A program made the position numbers and the translations under genes. The notes under the pieces were generated by a model. The model saw only the letters and a program-made list of their open reading frames with translations, did no database searches and was not told the DNA's origin. Shown in pieces: positions 47,445-62,880 of a stretch of 64,000 nucleotides of DNA. How positions within the stretch are numbered: position 1 is the stretch's first letter; each line of letters starts with the position of its first letter. This DNA is from Alphaproteobacteria bacterium (lineage in GTDB: Bacteria; Pseudomonadota; Alphaproteobacteria; Rhizobiales; Rhizobiaceae): assembly GCA_024742485.1 (NCBI GenBank), contig JANSYK010000001.1, forward strand, positions 1,922,001 to 1,986,000, read 5' to 3'.

Positions 47445-47821
47445 CGGCTTCCTGACCGGATTTCGCGGTCAAAGAGATCTATCCCGAACCGGCGATTTCG
47501 CCAATCCAGCGGGATTGTATCTACCGAAAGCCACAACCAGAGGTCACCGCGGCGTCCTGATCGAAATTCGTTTTCACAACAGGCGACAGCGTGAGAAACT
47601 GGGTGCTTTGCTCACTGCATCGGCATGAGTCAAACAGCCAACGCATGCCGATTTAACTTTTCTATTCAGCGGGTTAGAGATGACAACAAAAGGAAAACGA
47701 ATGGAACACAACACCAACCTCATCCCGCTGTCCAACAAATTTTAGATGGCTCCATTGGCACAATGAATTTGAACCATTCTCATTTCGTCGCCCAACATTA
47801 GAACAATTACAAAAATGGGCC
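47445..47821. other. Intergenic region upstream of the Rieske ferredoxin operon
   Basis: About 377 bases without a supported gene. It holds two short hairpins just after the tetR-like stop (47432-47448 and 47453-47471), a nine-base inverted repeat (47619-47652) and an AT-rich second half that presumably carries the ferredoxin operon promoter. A 21-codon ORF at 47680-47745 has AT-rich codons and is not called as a gene. Confidence 0.6.
47619..47652. promoter_or_regulatory. Nine-base inverted repeat, operator or terminator
   Basis: ATCGGCATG and CATGCCGAT are perfect inverted copies 16 bases apart. TTTAACTTTTC follows, so it could terminate the tetR-like transcript; it could equally be the operator of the ferredoxin/ABC operon. 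Confidence 0.45.
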
Positions 47822-47827
47822 TTGGGG

Positions 47828-48166
47828 ATGAGCGAAGACAATCACGCCAGTGCTGGAACCTGGATAAAAGCCGTTTCCGCCGATGCGCTTGAGCCGGACG
47901 ATGCCGAGAAGTTTGACCATGATGGCCTTTGCATCGCCGTATTCAATCTCGACGGAGACTATTTTGCCACGGCTGGCATCTGCACTCACGAACATGCGTT
48001 CCTGTCCGAGGGATATGTCGACGGCGAAACCGTCGAGTGTCCGCTGCATCAGGGACTCTTCAACATACGTACGGGCAAGGCACTCTCGCCACCAGTGACC
48101 GAGAGTCTACGGACTTTCAGGACGAAGGTCGAGGACGGCGACGTCTACGTTTTCGTCGAAACCTAA
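47828..48166 (+). CDS. Rieske [2Fe-2S] ferredoxin
   Basis: A 112-aa soluble Rieske ferredoxin of the type that carries electrons to multicomponent oxygenases. The cluster ligands are in C-T-H-E-H and C-P-L-H, 16 residues between the two pairs. ATG 47828 is chosen (a TTG lies six bases upstream). No Rieske oxygenase large subunit is encoded in this operon. The likely electron acceptor is the di-iron membrane oxygenase and the likely donor the FAD reductase, both encoded 7-9 kb downstream. Confidence 0.9.
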   Translation: MSEDNHASAGTWIKAVSADALEPDDAEKFDHDGLCIAVFNLDGDYFATAGICTHEHAFLSEGYVDGETVECPLHQGLFNIRTGKALSPPVTESLRTFRTKVEDGDVYVFVET

Positions 48167-48189
48167 AACAGTGACTGCGGCAGGAATCA

Positions 48190-48225
48190 GGCGTCAAACG
48201 CCAACTCCGGATGCCACGAGGAGTT
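48190..48225 (+). other. Two adjacent small stem-loops before the binding-protein gene
   Basis: GGCGT-CAA-ACGCC (48190-48202) and AACTCC-N11-GGAGTT (48203-48225) occupy the gap between the ferredoxin and binding-protein genes. They may limit read-through or protect mRNA ends. Confidence 0.35.
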
Positions 48226-48258
48226 CATATCTAAACCAGTCAATTGGGAGGAAACACC

Positions 48259-49560
48259 ATGACACTATCGAAACACGCGGCCTCATTGCGAGGTATTTCG
48301 AGAATAGCGCTGATAGCGGGCGTTCTCATCACAGGCGCAACAACCGCTCACGCAGCCGATGAGCCGGTACACACGGTATTGAATGGTCTCATCGGAAATT
48401 ATGCGCAGGCAGCGCGTGACAGCATGACCAATGAAAGCGTCAAAGAGCTCTTCGACAAGGATGGATTTCGTGATTATCTCGATGCCTATCCCGTCGGTGA
48501 ATTGGCTGGTGGCTTTGTATGGGAACCGGGAATGGGTGCGACATTCACCGGCCCCTATAGCGACCTGGAAATCAAGGCCCCTTTCACAGACTATCTTCCG
48601 CTCAAGGAAGGTCCCGTACTCAATCCCGACAAGACCTATCGCATTGGTTTCGTGTTTCATGGATTCAATCATCCCTGGCTGATCAGTCTCGCCGATACAG
48701 CTGCGTGGGAGGCGGCACGCCATCCCAACATCGATATCGAGGTGATAGACGCGGAGTTCGATGACAACCGTATGGGCCAGGTCATCGACAACTGGGTTGC
48801 CCAGCAATATGACGGTATCGTTCTGTGGCCCGCCCGCGAAGCACCCATGGGTCCACCGGTTGACCGCGCCATTGATGCGGGCATCCCGGTTGTCAGCCTC
48901 GACCGGCGCACATCGTCCCAGAAAATCAGCTCCGAGGTGCTTGGAAACTTCTATGCAAACGGATTGCAGCAAGGCCTTTACTTGAAGGAGATTTCCGACG
49001 GCGGAAACGTGATTTTCAATCGCAAGGACCTTGGCTCCACGGCCGATTCCATTCGGACCGGTGCATTTCTTGAAGTCATCGGTAGTGAACCCGGCTACGA
49101 AGTGACCGGAAACTACCACACCAAAAGCCAACGAACCCTTGCATTTCAAGCCACCGCAGACGCCCTCCAGGCCTATGACGACATTTCCGTCGTCTACAAC
49201 ACCGGCGGCGAGGAGGCGATGGGATCACTTGATGCCATACGCGAGGCGAACCGGCTGAACAGTGCTCCGGGCGGCGGAAAAATCATCATCCTCGCCAATG
49301 ACGACTCCAAGGAAGTCCTCAAGGAAGTCGCTTCCGGCAATGTGGACATGGTTGCCCCCTACACGCCGCTCATTGGTGACGTCGGCATTCGCGCAGTCAT
49401 TCAGCACATCGGTGCAAAGGAAGGGCTGAACGAGGCGCCACCCAAATTGATCATGACTCCGAACCTGCCAATGATAACGGCCAAGCCGATGACGATTGAG
49501 GGGGTAAAGACAGTCACTCCGGACAATTGGCTGTATGCCTACGGCCCAGCCGCCAAGTAA
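48259..49560 (+). CDS. Sugar-type ABC transporter substrate-binding protein
   Basis: A 433-aa periplasmic binding protein (ribose/RbsB cluster B, a long member) with a Sec signal peptide ending near residue 34 (T-T-A-H-A). The mature part has F-V-F-H-G-F-N-H-P-W, N-W-V-A-Q-Q-Y-D-G-I-V-L-W-P-A and V-V-S-L-D-R-R, typical of type 1 sugar-binding folds. GGGAGGAA precedes ATG 48259. The ligand is unknown; the FGGY kinase and RbsA-type ATPase suggest a sugar, polyol or related compound. Confidence 0.9.
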   Translation: MTLSKHAASLRGISRIALIAGVLITGATTAHAADEPVHTVLNGLIGNYAQAARDSMTNESVKELFDKDGFRDYLDAYPVGELAGGFVWEPGMGATFTGPYSDLEIKAPFTDYLPLKEGPVLNPDKTYRIGFVFHGFNHPWLISLADTAAWEAARHPNIDIEVIDAEFDDNRMGQVIDNWVAQQYDGIVLWPAREAPMGPPVDRAIDAGIPVVSLDRRTSSQKISSEVLGNFYANGLQQGLYLKEISDGGNVIFNRKDLGSTADSIRTGAFLEVIGSEPGYEVTGNYHTKSQRTLAFQATADALQAYDDISVVYNTGGEEAMGSLDAIREANRLNSAPGGGKIIILANDDSKEVLKEVASGNVDMVAPYTPLIGDVGIRAVIQHIGAKEGLNEAPPKLIMTPNLPMITAKPMTIEGVKTVTPDNWLYAYGPAAK

Positions 49561-49594
49561 CTCGACCTGGCCCTTCAATTGGGTCAAGGTCAAC

Positions 49595-49629
49595 ACTCTC
49601 CATGGCATCACAGGTGCGCCATGGAGAGT
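49595..49629 (+). other. Intercistronic stem-loop after the binding-protein gene
   Basis: ACTCTCCATGGC and GCCATGGAGAGT form a perfect 12-base-pair stem with an 11-base loop, 35 bases after the stop codon. No T-run follows. Its placement parallels the aglE/aglF stem-loop. Confidence 0.6.
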
Positions 49630-49705
49630 TGAGCAGGCAAAAGGCCGAAGAAGAACCGGACAGCATCAACAGGTTGGACACGAAGCGCCGACGGAGTCGT
49701 GAATT

Positions 49706-50698
49706 GTGAGTGTTGCAAACGAAAATCTCGTAAGTCGTTCCGGTGGCCTCGGCAAGACGGCCGGTATCTGGCACCTGCATTCCAATACGATCAACCTGTT
49801 GGCCCTTCTGCTGCTGTTACTCATCGTCGGGCGAATACTGTCACCCACATTTCTCACAGCAGAAAATCTCAAGATCGTTCTTCTGGCCATTGTCGGAACC
49901 AGCATCATTGCATTTGGCATGACAATGGTTGTCATTTCCGGTGAAATTGATCTTTCTGTCGCCGGTATCGCCGTCCTGTCGAGTATCGCCGGGGCGATGT
50001 TCCTCGACACCGGATCGGCATTTCTGGTCATTTCCGTTACGCTGGCCGTTGGCGTCGTTCTTGGTTTTCTCAACGGGATTCTGGTTGTCGGGATCGGTAT
50101 ACCGTCTTTGATCGCAACCCTTGCCATGCTCGGCGTCGCACGCGCGCTCGCCAATATCACGTCAAGCGGCAAGGCATTCTACCCCGATGATGTCGCTGGC
50201 TACCTCTGGTTCGGCCGTGGCGACATCTTCAATATTCCCGTACCAATCGTCATTCTGATCGTGGCGGCTCTGCTGTCGATCATCCTGACAAAATTCACCG
50301 TATTCGGTCGCAAGCTCTATGCCACCGGTGGAAACGTTGCTGCAGCCAGGTTGTCCGGCATTCGAACCTGGCGGGTCAAAATCACCGTCTTCACCATTTG
50401 CGGACTGGCGGCGGCCATGGGTGGAATTCTGGAAAGTGCCCGTCTTTCCTACATCAACCCGGCTGCGTTTCCCGGGATGGAATTGCGTGTGCTTGCCGTC
50501 ACTGTTCTGGGCGGCGCTGCCCTGATTGGCGGACGCGGGACGATCATCGGCACCGTGCTGGCTTCGATGATCATCGGTGTCATCAACAGCCTTCTGAACC
50601 AGATGGGCATCAGCATCTATGTTCAGCAGGTCGTGACCGCATTCATCATTCTGGCAGTTGTCCTTCCAGGCCTCAAGAACAGACTGGTGGCAAAATGA
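49706..50698 (+). CDS. Ribose-type ABC transporter permease (first)
   Basis: A 330-aa RbsC-type permease with about nine hydrophobic helices. G-E-I-D-L-S-V-A-G-I (the family's second-helix segment) and Y-A-T-G-G-N-V-A-A-A-R-L-S-G-I are conserved. The start is GTG 49706. It is one of two non-identical permeases in the operon, so the channel is probably a heterodimer. Confidence 0.9.
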   Translation: MSVANENLVSRSGGLGKTAGIWHLHSNTINLLALLLLLLIVGRILSPTFLTAENLKIVLLAIVGTSIIAFGMTMVVISGEIDLSVAGIAVLSSIAGAMFLDTGSAFLVISVTLAVGVVLGFLNGILVVGIGIPSLIATLAMLGVARALANITSSGKAFYPDDVAGYLWFGRGDIFNIPVPIVILIVAALLSIILTKFTVFGRKLYATGGNVAAARLSGIRTWRVKITVFTICGLAAAMGGILESARLSYINPAAFPGMELRVLAVTVLGGAALIGGRGTIIGTVLASMIIGVINSLLNQMGISIYVQQVVTAFIILAVVLPGLKNRLVAK

Positions 50699-50708
50699 GC
50701 ATGCAGCC

Positions 50709-51725
50709 ATGACACAAATGGAATTGATGGGGCAAAAACCGCGCCGGATTCCAGCGCTATTGAAAGACCCGCTTGTCTGGTTGATTGTTGCGGTCATTGT
50801 TGTCGGTGCCCTGACCTCACCCTACTTTTTGACGCCACTTAACCTGGCAAACACAATGCGCAACACCGCCGCAATCGGATTGCTGTCTCTTGGAATGACA
50901 TCGGTCCTGCTCACGGGCCGCATCGATTTGTCTGTCGCCGCGACAATGGTTTTTTCGGTCATCCTGGGCGTTGTGGTCACAGTTGAAATCGGAGCACTTC
51001 TGGGCGAACGCTGGCTCGTTCGCGGCAACCAGTTCGCCGGCCCTCCACTTCTGGTGATCGCGGTGACCCTGGCCACAGGCATCATCGTCGGCATATTGAA
51101 CGGCATTGGTGTGGCCTATCTCAAGGTGGCATCATTCATCATGACATTGGTAACCCTCACGGCTTTGCGTGGGTGGAACTACATTCTCACCAATGGACAC
51201 CCCTATTACCTGCGCGGCCCGACATTCGACTGGATTGGTGACAGTGTCTATTTCGGATTTCCGACAGGTTTCCTGATCTTCATTCTGGTTCTTGTTGTTC
51301 TGCTGGTGTTTCTCAAGGGAACGGTTATGGGCAGCCGCTTCTACGCCATTGGCGGAAACGAAGTCGCCACCGTCTACACGGGAATCAAGACCAATCGTTA
51401 TGTTGTTCTCGCCTTTGCCATCAGCGGCGCCTGCTCGGCGCTCGCGGGCGTGGTTTTGACATCCCGTCTCAAATCTGTGGATGCACCCCTGGGCTCGGGC
51501 TACGAACTTACGGCCATCGCCATTGCGGTGATTGGCGGAGTGTCGCTGGCCGGCGGAATTGGATCCCCGGTGCGAACCGTGTTGGCTGCAATCCTTTTTG
51601 CGTCTGTTTTGAATCTGTTCGGTATCTGGGGCGTGAGCACCTGGTATCAGAATCTGACAATTGGTCTGGCGTTGATACTGGCAGTGGGAATTTCCAGTGT
51701 CCGACGGCGCATCCTGGAACGATAA
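50709..51725 (+). CDS. Ribose-type ABC transporter permease (second)
   Basis: A 338-aa RbsC-type permease, diverged from the preceding one. G-R-I-D-L-S-V-A-A-T and Y-A-I-G-G-N-E-V-A-T-V-Y-T-G-I are the equivalent family segments. ATG 50709 lies ten bases after the first permease stop. Confidence 0.9.
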   Translation: MTQMELMGQKPRRIPALLKDPLVWLIVAVIVVGALTSPYFLTPLNLANTMRNTAAIGLLSLGMTSVLLTGRIDLSVAATMVFSVILGVVVTVEIGALLGERWLVRGNQFAGPPLLVIAVTLATGIIVGILNGIGVAYLKVASFIMTLVTLTALRGWNYILTNGHPYYLRGPTFDWIGDSVYFGFPTGFLIFILVLVVLLVFLKGTVMGSRFYAIGGNEVATVYTGIKTNRYVVLAFAISGACSALAGVVLTSRLKSVDAPLGSGYELTAIAIAVIGGVSLAGGIGSPVRTVLAAILFASVLNLFGIWGVSTWYQNLTIGLALILAVGISSVRRRILER

Positions 51726-51743
51726 ATCCATTGGGAGGAAACA

Positions 51744-53297
51744 TTGGCGGGTCATCTAACAATTGGTGTTGATATCGGAACGACAAACGTCAAGGCGTCA
51801 ATTCTTGACACGACGACGGGCAAGATCGTTGCATTCGGATCAAAGGAACATCCTCTGTTCCATCCAAATCCCGGATGGGCTGAACAGGAAGCCGATAACT
51901 ACTGGAGCGCCGTCGTATCAGCCATCCGGCAATGTCTGGAACAGGGAAATTTTGCGGACGACATAGCCGGTATCGCGCTGTCCGGTCTCGTCGGAGTGAC
52001 GTTGCCGGTCAACGACAAGGGAAAGCCCTTGCGGCCTGCCATGATCTGGATGGATTCCCGAACCGAGCCGGAATGCGATGACATCCGCTCGACGGTTGGC
52101 GAAGACACCATCAACCACAACAATGGCAACCGGATCGCGCCCTGGTTCATTGACCCGAAAGCGCTCTGGATCAAGAAACACGAGCCACATATTTTCAATG
52201 CAACCCACAAATTCCTGTCGCCATCGGGATACTGCACTTACAGAATGTGCGGAAATTTCACCATGAACACCGGCGATGCGGGGCTCGCCTATGCCTATGA
52301 ATATCAAAAGGAATCGTGGAACGAGAAGGTCGCCAATGCGCTTGGCATTCCACTCGACAAATTTCCTCGCCTCTATCAGTCCCATGAACCGGTAGGTGAA
52401 GTCACTCCGCAGGCAGCCGAAGAAACCGGACTTCGTGTCGGCACAATTGTCGCAGCCGGCGGAACCGACATCAGTTCCGCAGCGCTCGGTGTGGGCGTCA
52501 CCAAGGCAGGGCAAGCCTTTTACTCAATGGGTACGGGTTCCAATATCGGCATCATGATTCCAACCGAGCAAACGGTTGACGAATACCGGATATTGAAATG
52601 GCCTCATGTCCTTCCCGGGCTGACCATGTTCGATGCGCCAATGGCTTTCACCGGAGCATCTTTGAAATGGTATCGGGATCATTTCGGACAATCGGAGAAC
52701 CGAGTGGCCGAGCGTATGGAGCAGAATGTTTTTGACCTCTTCACCGAGCAGGCCAAACATGTCCCCCCCTGCGCCAACGGGCTGATGTATCTGCCCTATC
52801 TCGGCAACTCACTGGCTCCGAACTGGAACAGCAATGCCACGGGCGTGTTCTTTGGCGTTCAGCCAACCACATCCCGCCAGACAATGATAAGGGCGCTGAT
52901 CGAAGGCGTCGCCTTCGACCTTTTGTCTAACTTCCGGATCGCAGAAAGCGCCGGCGCCAAGATCGACAATCTGGTCCTCAATGGCGGCCCGACAAAAAGC
53001 CGGCTCTGGAACCAGATCACCGCCAATGTGGTCAACCGGCCATTGAAGGTTCCCGACATCGGTGAAGCCGCCCCCATTGGTGACGCCATCCTCGCGGGGG
53101 TTGCCGCCGGAATATATTCCAATCCGATCGAGCCCCTCGATCAAATCGTCACGATCAAGGAAACGATCGATCCGGACCCAGAAACCCACAAGCGATATGC
53201 GGATTTTTTCGAACTCTGGTCCTCTGTCTATGCAAGCCTGAAAAGCGAAATGGATCAGCACAGGGCGCTGCTCAACAAGTACCAGGTCGGTAAATGA
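51744..53297 (+). CDS. FGGY-family carbohydrate kinase
   Basis: A 517-aa FGGY kinase (xylulokinase/gluconokinase-like). The N-terminal phosphate loop is G-V-D-I-G-T-T-N-V-K, the adenosine region has A-G-G-T-D and M-G-T-G-S-N, and a C-terminal N-G-G-P-T-K-S-R-L-W segment is present. It starts at TTG 51744, seven bases after GGGAGGA. It phosphorylates the imported sugar or polyol. Its stop overlaps the ATPase gene as ATGA, so transport and phosphorylation are made together. Confidence 0.9.
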   Translation: MAGHLTIGVDIGTTNVKASILDTTTGKIVAFGSKEHPLFHPNPGWAEQEADNYWSAVVSAIRQCLEQGNFADDIAGIALSGLVGVTLPVNDKGKPLRPAMIWMDSRTEPECDDIRSTVGEDTINHNNGNRIAPWFIDPKALWIKKHEPHIFNATHKFLSPSGYCTYRMCGNFTMNTGDAGLAYAYEYQKESWNEKVANALGIPLDKFPRLYQSHEPVGEVTPQAAEETGLRVGTIVAAGGTDISSAALGVGVTKAGQAFYSMGTGSNIGIMIPTEQTVDEYRILKWPHVLPGLTMFDAPMAFTGASLKWYRDHFGQSENRVAERMEQNVFDLFTEQAKHVPPCANGLMYLPYLGNSLAPNWNSNATGVFFGVQPTTSRQTMIRALIEGVAFDLLSNFRIAESAGAKIDNLVLNGGPTKSRLWNQITANVVNRPLKVPDIGEAAPIGDAILAGVAAGIYSNPIEPLDQIVTIKETIDPDPETHKRYADFFELWSSVYASLKSEMDQHRALLNKYQVGK

Positions 53298-54784
53298 CGC
53301 AGACGACACCGCTTCTCGAAGTTAGAGATCTGTCAAAGGCGTTTCCTGGCGTTCAGGCGCTTGATAACGTCTCCTTTGATCTCAACGCCGGGGAAGTGCA
53401 CAGCCTGATCGGAGAAAACGGCGCCGGCAAATCGACGCTGCTGTCATGCATCAATGGCTTGCAGAAGCCAACCAGCGGCAAGATTTACATCGATGGACGG
53501 CTTGCCGCCTTCAACAGCCCCGTCGACGCCATCGGTCAGCGCCTTTCCATGGTTCATCAGGAACTTGTGCTTTGTCCCAATCTGACGGTCGCGGAAAACA
53601 TTTTTCTTGGTCGAGAACCCAAGGGTCCTGGCGGCCTCAAGGATACAGCCCGTCTTGAAAGGGACGCTAGCGATCTTCTTGCTCAGCTGAGGGTGTCAAT
53701 CGATCCATCCGGCAAACTGGGACTTCTCAGTCTGAACGAGCAGCAAATCGTCGAGATCTGTCGCGCGCTCGCAGCGGACCCGAAAGTCATCGTCCTGGAT
53801 GAGCCGACCGCATCCTTGAATGACGACCAGGTCGAACATCTTTTGGGGATCATCCGCGATCTGAAGAAGCGAGGCCTCGGGATCGTTTATGTATCGCATC
53901 GTCTCAATGAGGTGCTGGACATTTCTGACCGGATTACGGTTCTGAGGGATGGCCAGGTCGTCGCCACGGAACGCGCCGAAGGCACCGATCGGGGACAGCT
54001 GGTTTCCCTTATGGTCGGGCGGGAACGCAAACCGGGAGAAAACGTCTATTCCAGGCGCGAACTCGGCGAAATCGTTCTGGATGCTCAAAAGATCGGCAAT
54101 TCGCATTTCCGCGATGTTTCCTTTTCACTGCGCAAAGGTGAGATACTCGGCATTGCAGGCCTGTTGGGGTGCCAGAGGGAGGCTGTTGTGCGTTCTCTCT
54201 TTGGTGCACAGAAGATCGACGACGGCAAACTGGTCGTGCATGGCAAAATTCAGAACTTCCGCTCGCCCCATGACGCAATCGACAATGGCATTGCCTTCAT
54301 GGCGGCCGATCGCAAGCAGGAGGGGCTTGTGCTGAATATGACCGTCGCCGACAACATCTCTCTGACCATTCTCGATCGACTGACCGCATTCGGCTTTTTA
54401 AAGCGGGGCTCCGTTCTTGAGATGACGCGGAAAATGATCGATCTGCTGGCCATAAAAGTCAGTGCCGTCACACAACACGTCTCGCAATTGTCAGGCGGCA
54501 ATCAGCAAAAGGTCGTCATAGGTAAGTGGATAGCGAGAAAATGCGACATAATCATCGCTGAAGATCCGACCCGTGGAGTGGATGTCGGTGCCAAATACGA
54601 GATTTGGCGCGCCATACAGAGCCTCGCGGAGGAAGGACGTGCCGTCATTCTGCTGACAACCGAACTCGAAGAAATGATGACCGCCTGCGACAGGATCATT
54701 GTCATGGGCCGGGGTCGGATAACGGGAACGTTTCGGCGTGACGAGTTTTCAGCAGAGACAATCGCTCATCGTTTCTTCGTTTAG
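53294..54784 (+). CDS. Ribose-type ABC transporter ATP-binding protein
   Basis: A 496-aa RbsA-type double ATPase. Domain 1 has Walker A G-E-N-G-A-G-K-S-T and L-D-E-P-T-A; domain 2 has a degenerate P-loop (G-L-L-G-C-Q-R-E) and signature L-S-G-G-N-Q-Q-K. It completes the importer of this operon. About 100 AT-rich bases, which may hold an internal promoter, separate it from the desaturase-like gene. Confidence 0.92.
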   Translation: MTQTTPLLEVRDLSKAFPGVQALDNVSFDLNAGEVHSLIGENGAGKSTLLSCINGLQKPTSGKIYIDGRLAAFNSPVDAIGQRLSMVHQELVLCPNLTVAENIFLGREPKGPGGLKDTARLERDASDLLAQLRVSIDPSGKLGLLSLNEQQIVEICRALAADPKVIVLDEPTASLNDDQVEHLLGIIRDLKKRGLGIVYVSHRLNEVLDISDRITVLRDGQVVATERAEGTDRGQLVSLMVGRERKPGENVYSRRELGEIVLDAQKIGNSHFRDVSFSLRKGEILGIAGLLGCQREAVVRSLFGAQKIDDGKLVVHGKIQNFRSPHDAIDNGIAFMAADRKQEGLVLNMTVADNISLTILDRLTAFGFLKRGSVLEMTRKMIDLLAIKVSAVTQHVSQLSGGNQQKVVIGKWIARKCDIIIAEDPTRGVDVGAKYEIWRAIQSLAEEGRAVILLTTELEEMMTACDRIIVMGRGRITGTFRRDEFSAETIAHRFFV

Positions 54785-54884
54785 CATCCATTTGTGAATT
54801 CGATAGTCCGATGGGAACAATGAATTTTCCGGCCTCATGGGAAAAAAATACTATTGGAATCAACACGTGAATCGGGAGTAGCGA

Positions 54885-55877
54885 ATGACTGGAAATGACG
54901 TAGCAAGTTTCGCTGGGATCGGAGGAATAGGAAGCAGAATCTGGCCTCTGACCGGCCCGGAAATTGTATCCCGCAAGGTTCTCAAGGAACTGCGGGTCCG
55001 CAGCAATGGACCTGGCCTTTTCAATCTGGCGATCCACATTCTTGCTCTTCTGGTAACCGGGTTCCTGGTTTATCTGAGCGCCGGGATACTGTGGTTGCAG
55101 ATACCCGCCATGATCCTATACGGAACGGTCATCGTCCTGAGCTTTGCGCCATTACACGAGTGTTCTCACGGCACGGCCTTCAAGACCCGATGGATGAACC
55201 ACGCCCTTGGATATGTCATCGCGACGATGACGTTTAGGCCATTTCTCTACTTTAAATACCGTCACGCCGCCCATCACACATACACCCAGCATGAGGATCG
55301 CGATCCCGACATCGTGCCGTTTCCCCATTCACTCCTGGACTATTTTGCCCAGATCATCGGCGCGGGTTTCTGGCCCAAACTTTTTGGCACTTTATGGCGC
55401 GGAACGACCGGGCGGTTCAATGAAGAAGAACTCGGATTCCTGCCCGAAAGCGTTCGCACGCAGGTATCGAATGAAATCCGTCTGCAGTGTCTGTTCTATC
55501 TCGTTTTGATCGCGGGGTCGGTCTATTTTCAAAGCACCGTTCTACTTGTCTATTGGCTTGTTCCCCGCATTATCGGGGAGCCCGTGCTGCGCTCTATCCG
55601 TATGGCCGAACATACCGGCGCAGAAGAAAGCCCAAACCTCCTTGCCAACACGCGCACAACAATCGCCAATCCGATCCTGCGGCAGCTCTACTGGAATATG
55701 CCTTACCATGCCGAGCATCATCTCGCTTCATCTGTTCCGTTTCATGCGCTCGGCAAACTGCATGCCCATGTCGAGCCACATCTTGAGTGCGTGACAAAGG
55801 GGTATTTTACCGTTCACCGCGAAATCATCCGGGATGTCATGTCATCACGCAAACACGACGTCATCAGTCCCAATTGA
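54885..55877 (+). CDS. Membrane di-iron fatty acid desaturase/hydroxylase-family protein
   Basis: A 330-aa integral membrane di-iron enzyme. The three histidine boxes are H-E-C-S-H, H-A-A-H-H and H-A-E-H-H, with two hydrophobic hairpins (about 48-95 and 205-235). The superfamily covers desaturases, alkane and xylene hydroxylases and other oxygenases that receive electrons from a reductase/ferredoxin chain. ATG 54885 follows GGGAG. A FAD reductase gene begins two bases after the stop, and a Rieske ferredoxin leads the cluster, so hydroxylation or oxidative dealkylation of the transported compound is plausible; fatty-acid desaturation is the alternative. Confidence 0.87.
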   Translation: MTGNDVASFAGIGGIGSRIWPLTGPEIVSRKVLKELRVRSNGPGLFNLAIHILALLVTGFLVYLSAGILWLQIPAMILYGTVIVLSFAPLHECSHGTAFKTRWMNHALGYVIATMTFRPFLYFKYRHAAHHTYTQHEDRDPDIVPFPHSLLDYFAQIIGAGFWPKLFGTLWRGTTGRFNEEELGFLPESVRTQVSNEIRLQCLFYLVLIAGSVYFQSTVLLVYWLVPRIIGEPVLRSIRMAEHTGAEESPNLLANTRTTIANPILRQLYWNMPYHAEHHLASSVPFHALGKLHAHVEPHLECVTKGYFTVHREIIRDVMSSRKHDVISPN

Positions 55878-55879
55878 CG

Positions 55880-57142
55880 ATGAAGAGTGAACAAGCGGAC
55901 ACACCCGGTGTTGTCATTGTCGGCGCGGGACACTCCGGTGGTCGTGCAGCTGAAAGGCTGCGTGCTTTTGGCTACGACAAGCCGATCACTGTTATCGGAC
56001 AGGAGAGCCATCGGCCTTATGAGCGTCCGCCATTGTCAAAGGCCGTTTTGACCGCCAAAGCCCCGGTTGAACCACCGTTCCTGCTTACCGATGACAAATG
56101 GACGGCATTGCAGGTCAAATTCCTCCCGAACACATCCTGCCTGTCCATCGACCGCGCCACGACAACAGTCACGTTGTCGACCGGAGTGAGGCTTGCCTAT
56201 GAAAAGCTGGTCCTGGCAACAGGATTGGCTCCAGGATCGATACCGCAACTCAGCCTGAACGATCGCGGCATATGCTGCGTAAATGCCTTTGACGATGCCG
56301 CACTGCTCCGGAGCCATCTGCACGAGGCGAACAATGTCGTCATTGTCGGAGCCGGATTCATCGGACTGGAGGTCGCCGCGAGCGCCAGGCAACTTGGTGC
56401 CGCGGTGACCATCATCGAAATTGCCGACCGACCGCTGCAGCGAATGCTGCCGATGCATCTGTCGAACTGGATTGCGGACTGGCATCGGGACCGCGGCGTC
56501 GATATCCGCTGTGGACGTCGGATTGCTTCGCACAAACCGGATGAGGAGTGCCACCTCGTTACGCTTGATGACGACAGCGAATTGAAAGCCGACCTGATCG
56601 TGATCGGAATCGGCGGCAAACCGCGCGTGGACTTGGCAGCACGGGCCGGCTTGTGCGTCAACAACGGTGTGACCGTCGATGCTCAGTGCAGAAGCTCCGA
56701 TCGGAACATCTACGCAATCGGCGATATTGCACATCACCATCCCGGGCACGGCAGGTATTCCAGGCGGCTGGAAAGCTGGAAAAACGCCGAGGACAGCGCC
56801 GCGATAGCGGCAAAGGATATTTGTGGCGAACCGGCGCGATATGACCAGATCCCGTGGTTCTGGACCGATCAGTTTGGAAACAACCTGCAAATGACGGGAG
56901 AGATTCCGGATCACGCCGACATTTATGAGCGCGGCCGGATCGGAGAGTCCGGGTACCTTGCCTTTTATACGCAGGAAGAACAGCTGATAGGGGCGTTTGG
57001 CATCGATTGTGGAGGCGATATCCGCAAAGCCCGTGGCCACATTGAAAAATCCAGGCCTGTTACACGGGCGATCCTGGACAAGGCAGGCCTTTCTTTGAAA
57101 ATCAGCCCGAATGTGTCTGCTGCGGAGGAGCTGTCAGCATGA
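55880..57142 (+). CDS. FAD/NAD(P)-dependent ferredoxin reductase
   Basis: A 420-aa BphA4/rubredoxin reductase-type protein. FAD binding is by V-I-V-G-A-G-H-S-G-G near the N-terminus, NAD binding by V-I-V-G-A-G-F-I-G-L, and the second FAD segment by I-Y-A-I-G-D-I-A; a C-terminal reductase domain follows. Such proteins pass electrons from NADH to a [2Fe-2S] ferredoxin. It starts two bases after the di-iron oxygenase gene. Confidence 0.92.
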   Translation: MKSEQADTPGVVIVGAGHSGGRAAERLRAFGYDKPITVIGQESHRPYERPPLSKAVLTAKAPVEPPFLLTDDKWTALQVKFLPNTSCLSIDRATTTVTLSTGVRLAYEKLVLATGLAPGSIPQLSLNDRGICCVNAFDDAALLRSHLHEANNVVIVGAGFIGLEVAASARQLGAAVTIIEIADRPLQRMLPMHLSNWIADWHRDRGVDIRCGRRIASHKPDEECHLVTLDDDSELKADLIVIGIGGKPRVDLAARAGLCVNNGVTVDAQCRSSDRNIYAIGDIAHHHPGHGRYSRRLESWKNAEDSAAIAAKDICGEPARYDQIPWFWTDQFGNNLQMTGEIPDHADIYERGRIGESGYLAFYTQEEQLIGAFGIDCGGDIRKARGHIEKSRPVTRAILDKAGLSLKISPNVSAAEELSA

Positions 57143-58248
57143 ACAACGCCTCCGCTGCAATCTGCGCCGGGCCAGATACTCCACTGGAGATCGCCGAAAT
57201 CGCCGTTGCTCCTCCGCAGGACGGTGAAGTACTGGTCGAGATCGTGGCCAGTGGCCTGTGCCACACGGACCTGACCGCACTCGATGGCGAGAACGCGTCA
57301 GCAGTGTATCCGCTGATTCCCGGGCACGAGGGTGCAGGTCGCGTCATTGAAACAGGCCCCGGCGTTAAATCACTCAGCGAAGGCGATCATGTCATACCCC
57401 TTTATGGTCCCGAATGCGGCAGCTGCTCAATGTGCCGGTCACAGCGCACAAATCTTTGCTGGACGATCAAGAAAACCCGGGACAAGGGCGTCATGCCAAA
57501 TGGAACATCCAGATTCTCTCGCGGCGGTCAAACCGTTCACCATTTCATGGGCACGTCGACACTTTCACGCTATACGGTCGTTCCCGAAATCGCCCTTGCA
57601 AAAATCCGGCGGGACGTGCCTCTGGATGAGATATGCCTGTTCGGATGCGGTGTCACAACCGGTGTGGGAGCAGCATTGCAACATATCAGGCCCGGAGACA
57701 AAGTTGCTGTTTTTGGCCTGGGCGGCATTGGCATCAACATTATCCAGGGCGCCAGAATTGCCGGTGCATCACAAATCATCGGGATCGACCTGACGGAAAC
57801 GAAGGAAGCACTGGCCACGCAATATGGGATGACCCATTTCGTCAGTGCTACGGCCGGTTCCGACAATCCGGTTGAAGTCATTCGCGAGTTGACATCCGGT
57901 GGTGTGGATGTGGCGTTTGAATGCACCGGGCTCATTTCCGTCATGAGACAGTCGTTTGACTGCTCCGTTGCCGGATGGGGCAAATCAATCCTCCTTGGTG
58001 TAGAACCACCGGCCGCGGAGATGGCTTTTCCACCGGTTGGTGTCCGGTATGGCAAATCGATCCACGGAAGTTATTTCGGCGGCATCAAGGGGCGCAGCGG
58101 CCTTGGCAAGCTCATTGATCTGTTTGTCGATGGTGAAATTGATCTATCGGGACAGATCTCACATCAGTTTCCACTTTCCGGCGTCAATGAGGGATTCCGC
58201 CTGATGCGCCAGGGAATGTCTGTTCGCAGCATCATACGGTTCGAGTAG
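57139..58248 (+). CDS. Zinc-dependent alcohol dehydrogenase (class III-like MDR)
   Basis: A 369-aa medium-chain dehydrogenase. Catalytic zinc ligands are in G-L-C-H-T-D and G-H-E-G; structural zinc cysteines in C-G-S-C-S-M-C-x7-C; the nucleotide motif is G-L-G-G-I-G. Class III-like members include formaldehyde/S-hydroxymethyl-glutathione dehydrogenase and aryl or alkyl alcohol dehydrogenases. ATG 57139 overlaps the reductase stop. It probably oxidises the alcohol, or formaldehyde adduct, made by the oxygenase. Confidence 0.92.
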   Translation: MNNASAAICAGPDTPLEIAEIAVAPPQDGEVLVEIVASGLCHTDLTALDGENASAVYPLIPGHEGAGRVIETGPGVKSLSEGDHVIPLYGPECGSCSMCRSQRTNLCWTIKKTRDKGVMPNGTSRFSRGGQTVHHFMGTSTLSRYTVVPEIALAKIRRDVPLDEICLFGCGVTTGVGAALQHIRPGDKVAVFGLGGIGINIIQGARIAGASQIIGIDLTETKEALATQYGMTHFVSATAGSDNPVEVIRELTSGGVDVAFECTGLISVMRQSFDCSVAGWGKSILLGVEPPAAEMAFPPVGVRYGKSIHGSYFGGIKGRSGLGKLIDLFVDGEIDLSGQISHQFPLSGVNEGFRLMRQGMSVRSIIRFE

Positions 58249-58251
58249 CAA

Positions 58252-59076
58252 TTGGTCTGGATCAACGAAGCGGACTTTGTCTTTCGCAATCATCATCACG
58301 AGCGGGACAAGATCTATGCGCGTCTTGAAGCCGAGAGTGAGGCGCTGAGACGTTCGCAAGATGCGCTGCTCGACATCCCATATGGTCCCCATCCCCGTTC
58401 GCGCTTCGACTTGTTTATTGCTCCGACATCAAAGAAAATTGTGGTCTTTATTCATGGCGGCTACTGGCAGGGCCATTCGAAGGACCGCTATAGCTGTGTC
58501 GCGGCACCCATGGTGGAACGTGGATACACGACTGCCATTGTCGGCTATCCACTTGCGCCGGAAGTCAGCATCAACACCATCAAATCATGTGTTCTGGACG
58601 CACTTGATGAGATATGCCTGACAATGGGCAGACACACGCACCGGCCGGATCGGGTGCTACTTGCAGGTCATTCGGCTGGAGGGCATTTGGCCACCTGGGC
58701 ATCACTGGCCTGGGATCAGAACAGGCTACCGGTTTCGGCCGTCATCCCGATCAGCGGTATTTTCAATCTCGTTCCGATCATAGAAACATCGATCAATGAA
58801 TCCCTGGGATTGATCCCGGCTTCAGCGATGGCATTGAGCCCCATCAGTTACGACCCACCTGCCATGCCGGTCGTCGCCATTGCTGGATGTTGCGAGACGG
58901 AAGGTTTCAAGACCCAATCACGTGACTATGTCGATCATTGCAATTCCTCCGATCACGGAAGTGCGGAACTCGTTTGGATCGACCGGGCCAATCACTACTC
59001 GATCCTTCTCGATTTTTTTCAAACAAATTCGAAAATTCTGGGTAAAATCGACGAGTACATGGACCGTTGCCGGTAG
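58252..59076 (+). CDS. Alpha/beta hydrolase, arylformamidase-like
   Basis: A 274-aa hydrolase of the kynurenine-formamidase/esterase type. The oxyanion motif is H-G-G-Y-W, the nucleophile elbow G-H-S-A-G-G with Ser near residue 143, and a late His lies in R-A-N-H-Y-S. It starts at TTG 58252, three bases after the dehydrogenase stop; the ribosome site is weak. No tryptophan-degradation gene is near, so a formyl ester, thioester or amide made by this pathway is a better guess than formylkynurenine. Confidence 0.85.
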   Translation: MVWINEADFVFRNHHHERDKIYARLEAESEALRRSQDALLDIPYGPHPRSRFDLFIAPTSKKIVVFIHGGYWQGHSKDRYSCVAAPMVERGYTTAIVGYPLAPEVSINTIKSCVLDALDEICLTMGRHTHRPDRVLLAGHSAGGHLATWASLAWDQNRLPVSAVIPISGIFNLVPIIETSINESLGLIPASAMALSPISYDPPAMPVVAIAGCCETEGFKTQSRDYVDHCNSSDHGSAELVWIDRANHYSILLDFFQTNSKILGKIDEYMDRCR

Positions 59077-59136
59077 GGGACGGAAAAAAGTGGAAAAAGA
59101 TCCGGTCGCGCCAATGCGTAATCGGAGGGAGAGAGC

Positions 59137-60033
59137 ATGGCCGGGCGTGATCGGCTGAGATATGTGAATTTCAATCAATTGCGATCATTTTATGCCGTCG
59201 CTCTTGAATTGAATTTCACCAAAGCGGCCGAATGGTTGAGTATCGGCCAGCCGACGGTGACGACACAGGTCAAGGATCTTGAAGAGGCCTATGACGTTCA
59301 ACTGTTTCATCGCTCACCACAAGGTTTGGAATTGACCGACACCGGGCACGCCCTTTTGTCTTTGGCGCGTCAGAAATTTGCCCTGGAAGATCAGGCACAC
59401 ACACTTTTGACATCGACCGGGAACTCCTTTGCGGGCCGGCTTCACATTGGCACGGTTGGGCCGTTTTTCGTGATGGATCTTCTATCGGAGTATTCGGAAC
59501 GATATCCGCTGATCAAAGTCTCGGTCGAAAGTGGCAATTCGGACGCAATCTATCAGCGGCTTTTGAACTTCGAAGTCGACGTCGCCATTCTGGGACAGGA
59601 TTATCAGGATCACAAACTTGAAGCCATCAATCTGGGTCATCACGAAATCACGATCATCGTGAACAGATCGCACGCGTGGTCTGGCCGCAACAATGTTGAC
59701 CTGGCCGAGTTGGACGGGCAACGGATGATCTATCGCGAGGAGGGATCAATGACGCGGCGGGCCCTCGAGGAAAAGCTTGAAGCAAAGAACATCCGCCCCA
59801 ATGTCGTCATGGAACTTGCAAGGGATTCCGTTGTCGAGGCGGTCTCCGCCGGATTGGGTGCGGGAATCATTGCACGCGATGAACTCCCGGAAACCAGTCA
59901 GCTGAAGCAACTGCAGATTCGCGACGAAACGCCGTTTACCCATTCCTACGCTGTCTGTCTGAAAGAGCGCCTGGCAATCACGCCCATTCAGGTTTTCATG
60001 AATCTGGCCAGGAACAACGGCAAAGTGCCATAA
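59137..60033 (+). CDS. LysR-family transcriptional regulator
   Basis: A 298-aa LysR regulator with N-terminal helix-turn-helix (L-N-F-T-K-A-A-E-W-L-S-I-G-Q-P-T-V-T-T-Q) and a substrate domain. It differs from the two other LysR proteins of the window and is of the CysB/phosphonate-cluster branch by general look. It is the last gene in the rightward cluster and may control it. The effector is unknown. Confidence 0.9.
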   Translation: MAGRDRLRYVNFNQLRSFYAVALELNFTKAAEWLSIGQPTVTTQVKDLEEAYDVQLFHRSPQGLELTDTGHALLSLARQKFALEDQAHTLLTSTGNSFAGRLHIGTVGPFFVMDLLSEYSERYPLIKVSVESGNSDAIYQRLLNFEVDVAILGQDYQDHKLEAINLGHHEITIIVNRSHAWSGRNNVDLAELDGQRMIYREEGSMTRRALEEKLEAKNIRPNVVMELARDSVVEAVSAGLGAGIIARDELPETSQLKQLQIRDETPFTHSYAVCLKERLAITPIQVFMNLARNNGKVP

Positions 60034-60111: not shown

Positions 60112-61002
60112 TCAACCACTGCGCGCCAATCGTCTTGCGATCAAAGGTGCAGCCAGCGTGCACAACACGAATATGCCTGTCAGGAGCCGCAAATCGGATG
60201 GCCTGAGACCCAGTGCCAGCGCGAGAGCCACAACCTGAAAATAGATCAGCGCCCCTACCACCGGCGCCGCAATCTGCCGCGCCAGGTTCTTGTTTCCGAC
60301 AATGGCCTCACCAAGGATCGTTGCCGCCAGACCGATGATCAGAACGCCAGCGCCCATGGTCACATCCGCATAGCTTTGATACTGGGCCATGACAGCCCCA
60401 CCAAAAGCACTTAAGGCGCCCGCCAGTCCGAGGCCGCCGACAATATACCAGCCAGTCGCCAGGCCCTGCGCCCGTGACATCATCTGATTGGCCCCGACCG
60501 AGCGCAGTGCCACTCCGATCTCCGTATGCAGGAACCAGAACAGCGCGCCACAAACCAGAAGGATAATGACCATCAGCAGGGCAAATTGCGACAGGGGCGC
60601 ACCCCCGTCGGCATTGAGCAATTGTGTGAAAATCGTATCGAAATCGAAGAGCGCAGTATTCGGTTTCCCCATGATGCGGATATTGATGCTGAACAGCATC
60701 GTCAGGACTATGATCCCTGCCAGCAGAGAGGGTATCTTCAACAACAGATGAATGATGGCCGTCGCTCCACCCGCCACGACACCCGCCAGGATCGCCACCA
60801 CCAGGCCCAAAACGGGATTGTACCCGGCCGCCAGAAGTGTCGCGAGAACAGCGCCACCGAGTGGGAATGTTCCCTCAGACGTCAAATCAGGCAGGGACAA
60901 CACTCTGAACGGGATCATCACACCGAGCGCCACGAAAGCATAGACCGCTCCTTGTGCCAGACTCACCGGAAAAAGGTTGAGATAGACCGAGATGAATTCC
61001 AT
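60112..61002 (-). CDS. ABC transporter permease, Trp/Tyr (TrpY-like) type
   Basis: A 296-aa inner-membrane permease with about eight hydrophobic helices. L-S-L-P-D-L-T-S-E-G-T-F-P-L-G-G near residue 40 and G-E-A-I-V-G near residue 230 mark the family that works with ABC_sub_bind-type binding proteins. It is the last gene of a four-gene leftward operon. Confidence 0.9.
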   Translation of the reverse strand: MEFISVYLNLFPVSLAQGAVYAFVALGVMIPFRVLSLPDLTSEGTFPLGGAVLATLLAAGYNPVLGLVVAILAGVVAGGATAIIHLLLKIPSLLAGIIVLTMLFSINIRIMGKPNTALFDFDTIFTQLLNADGGAPLSQFALLMVIILLVCGALFWFLHTEIGVALRSVGANQMMSRAQGLATGWYIVGGLGLAGALSAFGGAVMAQYQSYADVTMGAGVLIIGLAATILGEAIVGNKNLARQIAAPVVGALIYFQVVALALALGLRPSDLRLLTGIFVLCTLAAPLIARRLARSG

Positions 61003-61015
61003 GACACGCCTCGCT

Positions 61016-61816
61016 CTAATTCAGGACCATACGGTCGCTGACGGCATCATGAAACCGGTCCACAAGGCCGCTGGCGGTCAGTTTTGACTTTTCCTCCGCA
61101 CCGGCATTGAAGATGACGCGGCCCTCATGAATCATCAGCAGACGATTCCCGAAGGTGATGGCGTGGTTCATATTGTGGGTCACCATAAGCGTGGTCGTGT
61201 GATGTTCCTCCACTGTCTGCGTGGTCGCGTTCATCACCAACTCCGCAGCCCGCGGATCAAGTGCTGCGGTGTGCTCGTCAAGCAGCAGCAGTCGCGGCTG
61301 ATTGAGGGTCGCCATGATCAATGTCAGGGATTGACGCTGACCACCCGAAAGCAGATCAACCCTGTCCGTAAGACGGTTTTCGAGTCCCAATCCCAGCGGA
61401 GCAAGCCTTTCGCGGAACACCCTGCGATCGTCGTTGCGGATGCTAAGCCGAAGATTTCGGCGATGACCGCGTCGCCTGGCAATCGACAGGTTTTCTTCGA
61501 TGGTCAATGCCGCCGCGGTTCCCATCATCGGATCCTGGAATACCCGCGATACAAGCCTTGCCCGGCGGTGTGTCGGCCAGGACTGGATCTGAATGCCATC
61601 AACCGATATATGGCCGGAATCAACCGAGATTTCGCCGGCCAGCGCGTTCAGCAACGTGCTTTTTCCTGCGCCATTGCTGCCGATCACGACTGCAAAATCG
61701 CCCGGTTCCAATTCAAAGTCGATACCCCTGAGGGCTCGTTTCTCCTGGACTGTCCCCGGATGGAAAGTGCGTTGCACACCCTCCACCGCGACGGCCGTTC
61801 GATGATTGTTGGACAC
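61016..61816 (-). CDS. ABC transporter ATP-binding protein, Trp/Tyr (TrpZ-like) type
   Basis: A 266-aa single-domain ATPase with Walker A G-S-N-G-A-G-K-S-T, signature L-S-G-G-Q-R-Q-S and Walker B L-L-L-L-D-E-H, in which His replaces the usual Pro, as in this subfamily. It is 13 bases upstream of the permease gene. Confidence 0.92.
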   Translation of the reverse strand: MSNNHRTAVAVEGVQRTFHPGTVQEKRALRGIDFELEPGDFAVVIGSNGAGKSTLLNALAGEISVDSGHISVDGIQIQSWPTHRRARLVSRVFQDPMMGTAAALTIEENLSIARRRGHRRNLRLSIRNDDRRVFRERLAPLGLGLENRLTDRVDLLSGGQRQSLTLIMATLNQPRLLLLDEHTAALDPRAAELVMNATTQTVEEHHTTTLMVTHNMNHAITFGNRLLMIHEGRVIFNAGAEEKSKLTASGLVDRFHDAVSDRMVLN

Positions 61817-61838
61817 GTCAAGCCCTGCCGCGCCGGCG

Positions 61839-62825: not shown

Positions 62826-62880
62826 TTCTCCCGTGTGTGTTCCTCTGGTTTCATCGGCCGAATGGGCTTTTCAGACCGAT

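Follow-up and report, generated by a model that had tools for sequence, protein, structure and literature searches.

A cluster of eleven genes, all on the + strand, extends from position 47828 to position 60033 of the window, i.e. the whole 64,000-nt stretch of DNA that was analysed; these coordinates agree with those of an earlier note on this DNA, whose description of the gene content held for all eleven genes. The cluster begins with the gene for a MocE-like Rieske [2Fe-2S] ferredoxin (47828..48166; PF00355; TIGR02377, below the MocE family cut-off), upstream of which lies a LysR-type box of the form AT-N11-AT, putative operator 1 (47753..47770, +; CATTGGCACAATGAATTT). The genes that follow encode a periplasmic binding protein with an RbsB-type domain at ~129-387 (48259..49560; Peripla_BP_4, PF13407), two RbsC-type permeases, an FGGY carbohydrate kinase that belongs to a subgroup of its own (51744..53297; FGGY_N/FGGY_C, PF00370/PF02782) and an RbsA/AraG-type ABC transport ATPase (53294..54784; NF008442 and related models, below cut-off). 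The Pfam search covered permease 1 only (49706..50698; BPD_transp_2, PF02653), and RbsC/AraH-type NCBIfam models match both permeases; for permease 2 (50709..51725; NF008441/NF007067, below cut-off) the start codon is uncertain, the ORF running from 50658.

A second LysR-type box, putative operator 2 (54810..54827, +; GATGGGAACAATGAATTT), lies upstream of the oxygenase half of the cluster. This half starts with a membrane oxygenase of the FA_desaturase family, a putative di-iron hydroxylase (54885..55877; PF00487), followed by an FAD/NAD(P) ferredoxin reductase (55880..57142; Pyr_redox_2, PF07992, plus Reductase_C, PF14759), a class III-like zinc alcohol dehydrogenase (57139..58248; ADH_N/ADH_zinc_N; TIGR02818, below cut-off) and a formamidase-like alpha/beta hydrolase, related to hormone-sensitive lipase and kynurenine formamidase (58252..59076; Abhydrolase_3, PF07859). 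A LysR-family regulator (59137..60033; PF00126 and PF03466) closes the cluster. The earlier statement that no Rieske oxygenase is present is right for the cluster but not for the window, which carries a Rieske-oxygenase-like ORF at ~1203-3005 (-), read from its translation only.

Conservation of the cluster and its putative regulatory boxes

Gene content, gene order and strand are identical in 10/10 loci that could accommodate all eleven genes, the LysR gene being the last one in all ten. The 4.1 kb contig L023 is an eleventh locus; it has four cluster genes, the outer two of which are truncated at the contig ends. The carriers belong to Rhizobiaceae, Aestuariivirga and Caballeronia, that is, to both Alpha- and Betaproteobacteria; they are distantly related soil and plant-associated bacteria. 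These loci were retrieved via the oxygenase and the kinase was searched separately: the kinase-led searches revealed no cluster without the oxygenase, and of 297 family genomes, 6 contain the kinase and the same 6 contain the oxygenase. Among plasmids, the only records with kinase and binding-protein relatives at >60% identity are the two that carry the cluster. A DNA comparison of the flanks (E 1e-10) detected sharing only between L020 and L021, which are nearly identical, and in three short stretches where L022 and L025 match L027.

A LysR-type box precedes both the ferredoxin and the oxygenase gene in every copy, so that importer and oxygenase appear to form a single regulon. The ferredoxin-upstream box is kept in 11/11 copies (0 mismatches in 10, 1 in L026), and the oxygenase-upstream box was found in 12/12 copies with 0-2 mismatches, the one in the window differing at one position from the core derived from the ferredoxin-upstream set. 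No control piece matched the box with ≤1 mismatch (0/3600). Distances were measured from real in-frame start codons, and the box sites are the same as with tblastn-projected starts. A longer version of the pattern occurs at 16 places in the whole genome with ≤2 mismatches, versus 1 for the reversed-pattern control; the ferredoxin site is the only one of the 16 with 0 mismatches, whereas the oxygenase site differs from the longer pattern at 3 positions and falls outside them. Within the window, the longer pattern with ≤3 mismatches occurs twice, which is not above the shuffle mean of 2.9. The weight of the box evidence lies in position and conservation across loci. A sigma-70 promoter scan gave 6 promoter-like matches against a shuffle mean of 7.7, not above chance level, and a terminator scan gave 27 terminator-like matches against a shuffle mean of 12.8, but these were scattered within genes and were left out of account.

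Taken together, the conserved eleven-gene block, the common genome distribution of kinase and oxygenase and the boxes shared by both halves bear out the idea of the earlier note that importer and oxygenase chain belong together. Moreover, neither the ten loci nor the kinase-led searches yielded the orthologous clusters without oxygenase or reductase that would have spoken against it.

Features of the encoded proteins

The binding protein carries a conserved N-terminal extension of ~100 residues ahead of its RbsB-type domain; this extension lies outside the part covered by any of the 25 listed relatives of solved structure. The structure model of the binding protein (mean pLDDT 44) was discarded. 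The sugar-contact residues of the E. coli ribose-binding protein (N, DR, R) are apparently mostly retained in the alignment, supporting a sugar-like ligand and no more. Outside the cluster, its closest plasmid relatives are only ~28% identical; one (L049) adjoins oxidoreductase, hydrolase and isomerase genes and another (L050) has ATPase and permease genes as its sole companions, and no substrate follows from such distant relatives. The kinase gives no substrate either: it misses all 12 curated FGGY-type cut-offs listed, including that of XylB (343 bits, cut-off 380), and lacks the Met-His signature of XylB-I/GntK, a pair that occupies signature positions one and two in XylB-I (PMC3245297), so that no known specificity can be assigned. 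Having placed this signature at QMHG of the xylulose kinase 2itm, we find GLV-G aligned there, within an SGLVGVT motif present in 11/11 copies.

The motifs looked for in a three-component ferredoxin-dependent oxygenase are present: three conserved His boxes in the oxygenase, the CxH...CxxH ligands of a Rieske protein in the ferredoxin, and FAD/NAD motifs in the reductase. The His boxes (HECSH, HHTYTQH and HAEHH), already described in the earlier note, are real and occur in all 12 aligned oxygenases, together with an upstream EH; the ferredoxin keeps CTH...CPLH in 11/11 copies and the reductase two GxGxxG-type motifs in 12/12. Reductase, ferredoxin and oxygenase would form an electron chain, in that order. 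In the oxygenase tree the 12 cluster proteins make up a clade of their own (99/99), and another clade (99/100) contains the MocD-like proteins of R. lentis and R. leguminosarum plus those of L031, L053, L005 and L006. The ferredoxin reaches 108.5 bits against the MocE model TIGR02377 (cut-off 136.15), which the ferredoxins of L032 and L031 pass (178.1 and 173.0 bits). Against the GntB model the oxygenase scores 40.8 bits (cut-off 380), a model weakly matched by all 22 oxygenases compared.

A proposed function and its alternatives

We see an even chance that the cluster is an inducible operon for import, oxidative ether cleavage (probably O-demethylation) and phosphorylation. The sugar-type ABC importer would take up a sugar, polyol or cyclitol with an ether-linked small group, most likely O-methyl; ether and methyl group are both candidates that the sequence does not prove. 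Electrons from NAD(P)H would reach the membrane di-iron oxygenase via the FAD reductase and then the Rieske ferredoxin, and the oxygenase would hydroxylate the carbon adjoining the ether oxygen to give a hemiacetal. Zinc dehydrogenase and hydrolase would then handle the removed group, either by turning the hemiacetal into an ester that is hydrolysed or by acting on the released aldehyde, and the polyol or sugar thus set free would be phosphorylated by the FGGY kinase. The LysR protein would sense the substrate or an intermediate and act at the boxes ahead of both halves. In favour of this proposal, conservation is highest in the proteins expected to touch the substrate: invariant positions (L023 excluded) amount to 60% in the kinase, the most conserved of all (309/517, 11 copies), 55% in the binding protein (237/433, 11 copies), 47% in the dehydrogenase and 46% in the oxygenase, compared with 20% in the reductase. 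We count against it that the hydrolase is the least conserved protein (19%) although the proposal requires it, and that no folate C1 genes lie within the cluster.

The same genes could also serve hydroxylation of a C-methyl or methylene group without cleavage, for which XylM with benzyl alcohol dehydrogenase is the model: the oxygenase would make an alcohol, the dehydrogenase oxidise it, the hydrolase open a lactone or ester, and the kinase phosphorylate a sugar-derived acid or polyol. The zinc dehydrogenase and hydrolase genes directly after oxygenase and reductase fit this, as does a related Cupriavidus oxygenase (L055) located with a hydrolase, an alcohol dehydrogenase and a rubredoxin; furthermore, AlkB-AlkG, third among the PDB matches of the oxygenase model (pLDDT 82), is its best-matching characterised oxygenase structure, if a weak match (E 0.023, TMq 0.44). 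However, the cluster has no aldehyde dehydrogenase, and the importer-adjoining oxygenase/ferredoxin/reductase triads among the loci examined are MocDEF-like, so we regard hydroxylation without cleavage as credible but unlikely. If the imported compound were an amino sugar or amino-cyclitol, the reaction could be an oxidative N-dealkylation; in favour of this, rhizopines are O-methylated amino-cyclitols. Moreover, among related oxygenase-ferredoxin pairs, that of Ruegeria (L030) adjoins genes for amino-acid importers, a trimethylamine methyltransferase and sarcosine oxidase, and that of L014, in the genome to which the window belongs, adjoins SBP_bac_3-type binding proteins. Yet the importer in the window is of the RbsABC sugar type and no aminotransferase, deaminase or sarcosine-oxidase-like gene is found among the eleven, which makes N-dealkylation improbable. 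As for a lipid desaturase merely adjoining a sugar operon, the Pfam family (FA_desaturase) is in keeping with it, but linkage in 10/10 loci, a common box, dedicated redox partners and a score of 45 bits against the DesA/DesB fatty-acid desaturase models (cut-off 500) render it very improbable. The oxygenase is no curated lipid desaturase, a possibility that the earlier note had raised against its own proposal.

A further alternative concerns the dehydrogenase and hydrolase, which could be a second copy of glutathione-dependent formaldehyde oxidation. That pathway likewise pairs a class III-like dehydrogenase with an alpha/beta hydrolase, and the cluster dehydrogenase is 47% identical to the canonical enzyme encoded elsewhere in the same genome. 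Against TIGR02818 (cut-off 544), however, it scores 427 bits and the canonical enzyme 599, and the gene of the latter lies 0.6 kb from an Esterase-family gene, so that the genome already has such a pair. Of the glutathione-adduct contacts of class III dehydrogenase, Asp55, Glu57, Arg114 and Thr46 (PMC6409631), placed on our alignment by motif, the first three are replaced by N, S/T and K, respectively, in 12/12 copies, and Thr46 is retained. In addition, the cluster hydrolase falls in other Pfam families; its motifs HGGYW, GHSAGGH and HY are present in 11/11 copies and its PDB relatives are 9n8r, 2pbl and 4e11 (kynurenine formamidase). The replaced contact residues and the canonical pair elsewhere argue against ordinary glutathione-dependent formaldehyde detoxification: a second copy of the pathway is a poor candidate, and this dehydrogenase is unlikely to be an ordinary glutathione-dependent enzyme for formaldehyde. 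Within the proposal of import and ether cleavage, a formaldehyde-sparing O-demethylation can be envisaged, in which the oxygenase would produce sugar-O-CH2OH, the dehydrogenase would oxidise this hemiacetal to a sugar formate ester, and the hydrolase would split the ester into formate and a free sugar, the latter serving as kinase substrate. Such a route would parallel glutathione-dependent formaldehyde oxidation, the sugar taking over the role of glutathione; we hold it to be rather unlikely.

Comparison with known systems

Other membrane oxygenases offer distant parallels. The L-arginine gamma-hydroxylase GntB belongs to the same superfamily and has the same His boxes, but the GntB-like protein of L052 clusters with MocD in the tree, apart from the window clade. 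AlkB and XylM share the fold class of the window oxygenase, the AlkB-AlkG match being weak; AlkB works with rubredoxin and is not known to go with a sugar importer.

The statement of the earlier note that no described pathway has this gene set overlooked the rhizopine genes mocDEF, found with mocB, mocA, mocC and mocR in Sinorhizobium meliloti L5-30 and in Rhizobium leguminosarum. Both systems have a membrane desaturase-family oxygenase, a Rieske ferredoxin, an FAD reductase and an RbsB-type binding protein, and the window proteins are 35/43/37% identical to the MocD/E/F-like proteins of R. lentis. The statement stands insofar as the window oxygenase is outside the MocD clade, the ferredoxin is under the MocE cut-off and the downstream genes differ; no description of the window gene set was found in the open-licence PMC papers searched, nor any match for tert-butoxymethanol/tert-butyl formate or for pinitol demethylation. 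In the window the ferredoxin gene precedes the importer, and FGGY kinase, zinc dehydrogenase, hydrolase and LysR genes replace the inositol and folate genes, with no MocA/IolG, MocC, MocR, purU or panB-like gene among the eleven. A Gfo/Idh/MocA-like ORF lies ~28 kb away in the window (17938-19950), and there are further ones elsewhere in the genome. Since the oxygenase is outside the MocD clade, rhizopine chemistry is an analogy only; the cluster may resemble MocDEF in the way it works, yet it is not a member of that family. MocDEF-like triads adjoin sugar importers in L031, L032 and L053, which gives the proposed import and cleavage a precedent. The mocDEF promoter is described as rhizopine-inducible (PMC10107442). 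Besides their occurrence in rhizopine users, mocDEF genes have been reported from Pseudomonas syringae, where they lie next to a xylose isomerase gene and lack the remaining moc genes (PMC5132102). The comparisons show that the cluster is a second importer-linked ferredoxin oxygenase cassette, distinct from MocDEF, which is conserved as a unit across Alpha- and Betaproteobacteria and contains a kinase rather than inositol genes.

The P450 system for 6-O-methyl-D-galactose of marine Flavobacteriia is a closer analogue than the earlier note claimed, given that these loci co-encode not only oxygenase and redox partners but also a zinc dehydrogenase and an esterase (PMC10033563). There a P450 replaces the membrane di-iron oxygenase, the setting is polysaccharide utilisation, and the dehydrogenase is shorter (~326 residues). 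These loci, too, are a precedent for the proposed logic. Knock-out of its gene caused a strong growth defect on 6-O-methyl-D-galactose, although the enzyme had no formaldehyde activity with or without thiols and prefers aromatic aldehydes (PMC10033563); by analogy, these data would count against fixed roles for the cluster dehydrogenase and hydrolase. The pair in the window recalls the puzzle of the marine pathway, i.e. a dehydrogenase that is needed for normal growth and whose reaction is unexplained (PMC10033563), and a tractable soil strain with the cluster would let this puzzle be tested. If the formaldehyde-sparing route were true, the zinc dehydrogenase and esterase of the P450 system would act alike, a convergent solution in two phyla.

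Gene content and occurrence of the cluster

The eleven-gene set that the earlier note had described was recovered at 47828-60033, with all genes pointing rightward and with the families assigned there. The order is a Rieske ferredoxin, an RbsB-type binding protein and two RbsC-type permeases (genes 1-4), then an FGGY kinase, an RbsA-type ATPase, a FA_desaturase-family oxygenase and a FAD ferredoxin reductase (genes 5-8), and lastly a class III-like zinc dehydrogenase, an alpha/beta hydrolase and a LysR regulator (genes 9-11). Two junctions are 4-base overlaps and the other tight ones leave 2-18 bases (the start of the second permease being uncertain); larger gaps occur after the ferredoxin gene (92 bases) and ahead of the first permease (145 bases), the oxygenase (100 bases) and the LysR gene (60 bases). 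On the minus strand, an ABC_sub_bind-type importer (binding protein, ATPase, permease) adjoins an aspartate-dehydrogenase-like gene at 60112-63705, and a Rieske-oxygenase-like ORF, read from its translation only, lies at 1203-3005, about 45 kb off the cluster.

With the oxygenase as query and a strict threshold, matches were found in six of the 297 genomes searched within the family, in two of 397 genomes of an order sample (both already found) and in one of 385 genomes of a class sample, namely the window genome itself. In a genome-contig collection the oxygenase matched seven loci; by their coordinates, three of these (L019, L022 and L023) come from genomes already present in the family sample (G066, G275 and G089). 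Two Sinorhizobium plasmid records exceed 60% identity to the oxygenase, and 294 more plasmid records fall below 60%. All ten loci long enough for the whole cluster (L019-L022, L024-L029) hold the eleven genes in identical order and strand; on the 4.1 kb contig of L023 four cluster genes are present, the outermost two truncated by the contig ends. Among the hosts are Aestuariivirga and two species of Sinorhizobium, along with two Caballeronia; S. mexicanum ITTG R7 is a non-pathogenic carrier. Among the flanking stretches compared, DNA shared at E 1e-10 was limited to two cases: L020 and L021, which are nearly identical to each other, and L027, which has three short matches (54-285 bases) to L022 and L025. 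The cluster was not found in the four same-genus genomes searched. Taken together, the pattern is that of a block moving as a unit, by putative transfer.

The earlier note had named homologous clusters that consistently lack the oxygenase and reductase as a refutation of its reading. None appeared in searches with the kinase and the binding protein, and importer and oxygenase chain stand as one set. The kinase occurs in exactly the same six of 297 family genomes as the oxygenase (in G089 on a different contig) and in one of 299 genomes of a phylum sample, that of the window. Of the plasmid records with a kinase match, the two that bear the cluster give 83-84%, and the remaining 273 are all under 60%, the best among the matches listed reaching 34%; the binding protein gives 78% in two records, the next among the matches listed being 28%. 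Given these matching distributions, neither kinase nor importer was found without the oxygenase in the family, phylum and plasmid samples searched.

Invariant positions, counted over 11 copies (L023 left out), make up 60% of the kinase, 55% of the binding protein, 47% of the dehydrogenase and 46% of the oxygenase, then 38% of the ferredoxin, 37% of the LysR protein, 36% of the ATPase and 33 and 29% of the permeases, and least of the reductase (20%) and the hydrolase (19%). Conservation is thus highest in the proteins expected to contact the substrate, the hydrolase being the exception, which suggests that the cluster copies act on one constant substrate.

Putative LysR boxes

All 11 copies have one conserved element upstream of the ferredoxin gene, at a distance of 73-104 bases from the likely start (47753-47770 in the window). 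The core CATNNNNANAATGAATTT, derived from these elements and then searched for in a 200-base stretch ahead of the oxygenase, was present in all 12 copies, with no mismatch in one, one mismatch in nine and two in two. This second box (54810-54827) is located 75-81 bases before the start, or about 115 in the two Caballeronia loci. Control pieces of 200 bases, 3600 of them drawn at random from the same loci away from the real sites, never came within 1 mismatch of the core, and five had 2 mismatches. The usual LysR box is T-N11-A, or AT-N11-AT. T-N11-A is found in 23 of 23 sites, inside AT-N11-AT in 21 of them, the former count being circular for the ferredoxin set and partly so for the oxygenase set because the T and A belong to the searched core, and many of the loci behind the box counts being related to each other. 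Through these putative boxes the two cluster halves appear to share one regulator, for which the linked LysR protein would most simply be the candidate. Fifteen further box-like sites with 1-2 mismatches are present in the window genome (loci L057-L065 and six without a locus), giving 16 places including the cluster site versus one for a reversed-pattern control; a putative wider regulon is possible.

Oxygenase chain, kinase and ligand

The His boxes are intact in 12 of 12 oxygenases, the Rieske ligands are kept in 11 of 11 ferredoxins, and every one of the 12 reductases has the FAD and NAD motifs. The tree, built from 27 proteins, leaves seven inner branches unresolved and has several long-branched rows; in it the 12 cluster oxygenases form their own clade (support 99/99). 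A separate clade (99/100) takes in MocD-like proteins of two rhizopine-type loci and of two MocDEF-like sets next to iolG, plus two paralogues from the window genome; a GntB-like protein adjoins this MocD-like clade (95/99). The nearest proteins found outside the cluster clade are 37-40% identical (L002 and L003 of the window genome, Ruegeria L030 and Nostoc L051). The cluster oxygenase scores far under the cut-off of each curated desaturase or hydroxylase model that it matched, and the GntB model is matched weakly by every member of a wider set of 22 oxygenases. The predicted structure (13 sequences) has a mean pLDDT of 82; in the PDB its top two matches come from motor complexes (chains of Ycf2-FtsHi and of Orf2971-FtsHi), and AlkB-AlkG is third (E 0.023, TMq 0.44). 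The cluster ferredoxin scores 108.5 against the MocE cut-off of 136.15; the ferredoxins of the MocDEF-like triad loci L032 and L031 reach 178 and 173.

A second ferredoxin-oxygenase triad in the window genome (G000:C120:1014-7162; L017, same coordinates) comprises a LacI regulator, a MocD-clade oxygenase, a ferredoxin, a reductase and two Gfo/Idh/MocA oxidoreductases, and is perhaps for an O-methyl-inositol-like compound. Related oxygenase-ferredoxin pairs accompany SBP_bac_3-type importers at G000:C154:1897688-1898982 (L014, 7689-8983) and in Ruegeria (L030), the latter with sarcosine oxidase and trimethylamine methyltransferase genes nearby; both pairs would perhaps serve an N-methyl substrate.

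The nearest PDB relatives of the kinase are xylulokinase and autoinducer-2 kinase, yet it falls under all 12 curated cut-offs listed and is without the Met-His signature of XylB-I and GntK. The binding protein (48259-49560) joins an RbsB-type domain to an unusual conserved N-terminal extension, covered by none of the solved relatives listed; the extension is highly conserved and takes up about 100 residues (about 33-127 of the protein) ahead of that domain. The ligand is likely a sugar, polyol or cyclitol. Outside the cluster, the plasmid protein closest to the binding protein among the matches listed is on Cryobacterium arcticum plasmid pP27867_2 (L049, 5676-14634), where it neighbours a Gfo/Idh/MocA oxidoreductase and an alpha/beta hydrolase as well as an alcohol dehydrogenase and a TIM-barrel protein; this set partly parallels the cluster, without the oxygenase.

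Downstream enzymes and comparison with known systems

The cluster dehydrogenase is 47% identical to the canonical glutathione-dependent formaldehyde dehydrogenase of the same genome and scores under the family cut-off. The glutathione-adduct contacts named in PMC6409631 are Arg114, Asp55, Glu57 and Thr46; with the contacts located on the alignment by motif, K, N and S/T take the place of the first three in all 12 cluster dehydrogenases, whereas the canonical copy retains them. That copy (C154:224790) and an Esterase-family gene (C154:226489) are arranged as is usual for the formaldehyde pathway. The low score, the replaced contacts and this canonical pair elsewhere argue that the cluster enzyme probably acts on a substrate other than the glutathione adduct of formaldehyde. 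The closest PDB relatives of the hydrolase are lipase-like esterases and kynurenine formamidase, and the protein retains HGGYW, GHSAGGH and HY in 11 of 11 copies.

Like the cluster, the marine 6-O-methyl-galactose loci described in PMC10033563 combine a zinc dehydrogenase and an esterase with an oxygenase chain, there a P450 and its redox partners. According to the same paper, knock-out of the dehydrogenase gene strongly impaired growth on the methyl sugar, and the enzyme was inactive on formaldehyde with many thiols and on the sugar, and favoured aromatic aldehydes. By analogy from this gene set, growth defect and absent activity, both dehydrogenase/hydrolase pairs may oxidise a hemiacetal to a formate ester and then hydrolyse the ester. 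The word 'hemiacetal' is absent from the main text of PMC10033563, so that the idea was seemingly not considered there. The narrow active site of the P450-locus dehydrogenase, as given in that paper, speaks against a bulky sugar substrate.

We hold that the chances for and against import-linked oxidative ether cleavage as the role of the cluster are about balanced. The gene set observed in the earlier note stood, and its interpretation was borne out in part; its remark that it knew of no described pathway with this set held only in part, as mocDEF-type sets beside sugar importers were already known.

The mocDEF system removes an O-methyl group. Bahar et al. reportedly found in 1998 that these rhizopine genes encode a ferredoxin oxygenase complex. 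Their promoter is rhizopine-inducible, as is that of mocB (PMC10107442). An R. lentis plasmid carries a PLP-dependent aminotransferase-family gene (probably mocR, judged by its place), a binding protein, an oxygenase, a MocE-family ferredoxin, a reductase, a panB-like gene and purU, and in Rhizobium SL42 and Nitratireductor MocDEF-like triads occur with iolG, a sugar importer, a LacI regulator and purU. In view of these loci, importer-linked oxygenase/ferredoxin/reductase sets for methylated polyols represent a known kind, of which the window cluster is a variant. It has in common with mocDEF the oxygenase, ferredoxin and reductase linked to a sugar-type importer, but differs in that its oxygenase belongs to another clade, its ferredoxin falls under the MocE cut-off, inositol and folate genes are absent among the eleven, and the downstream enzymes are others.
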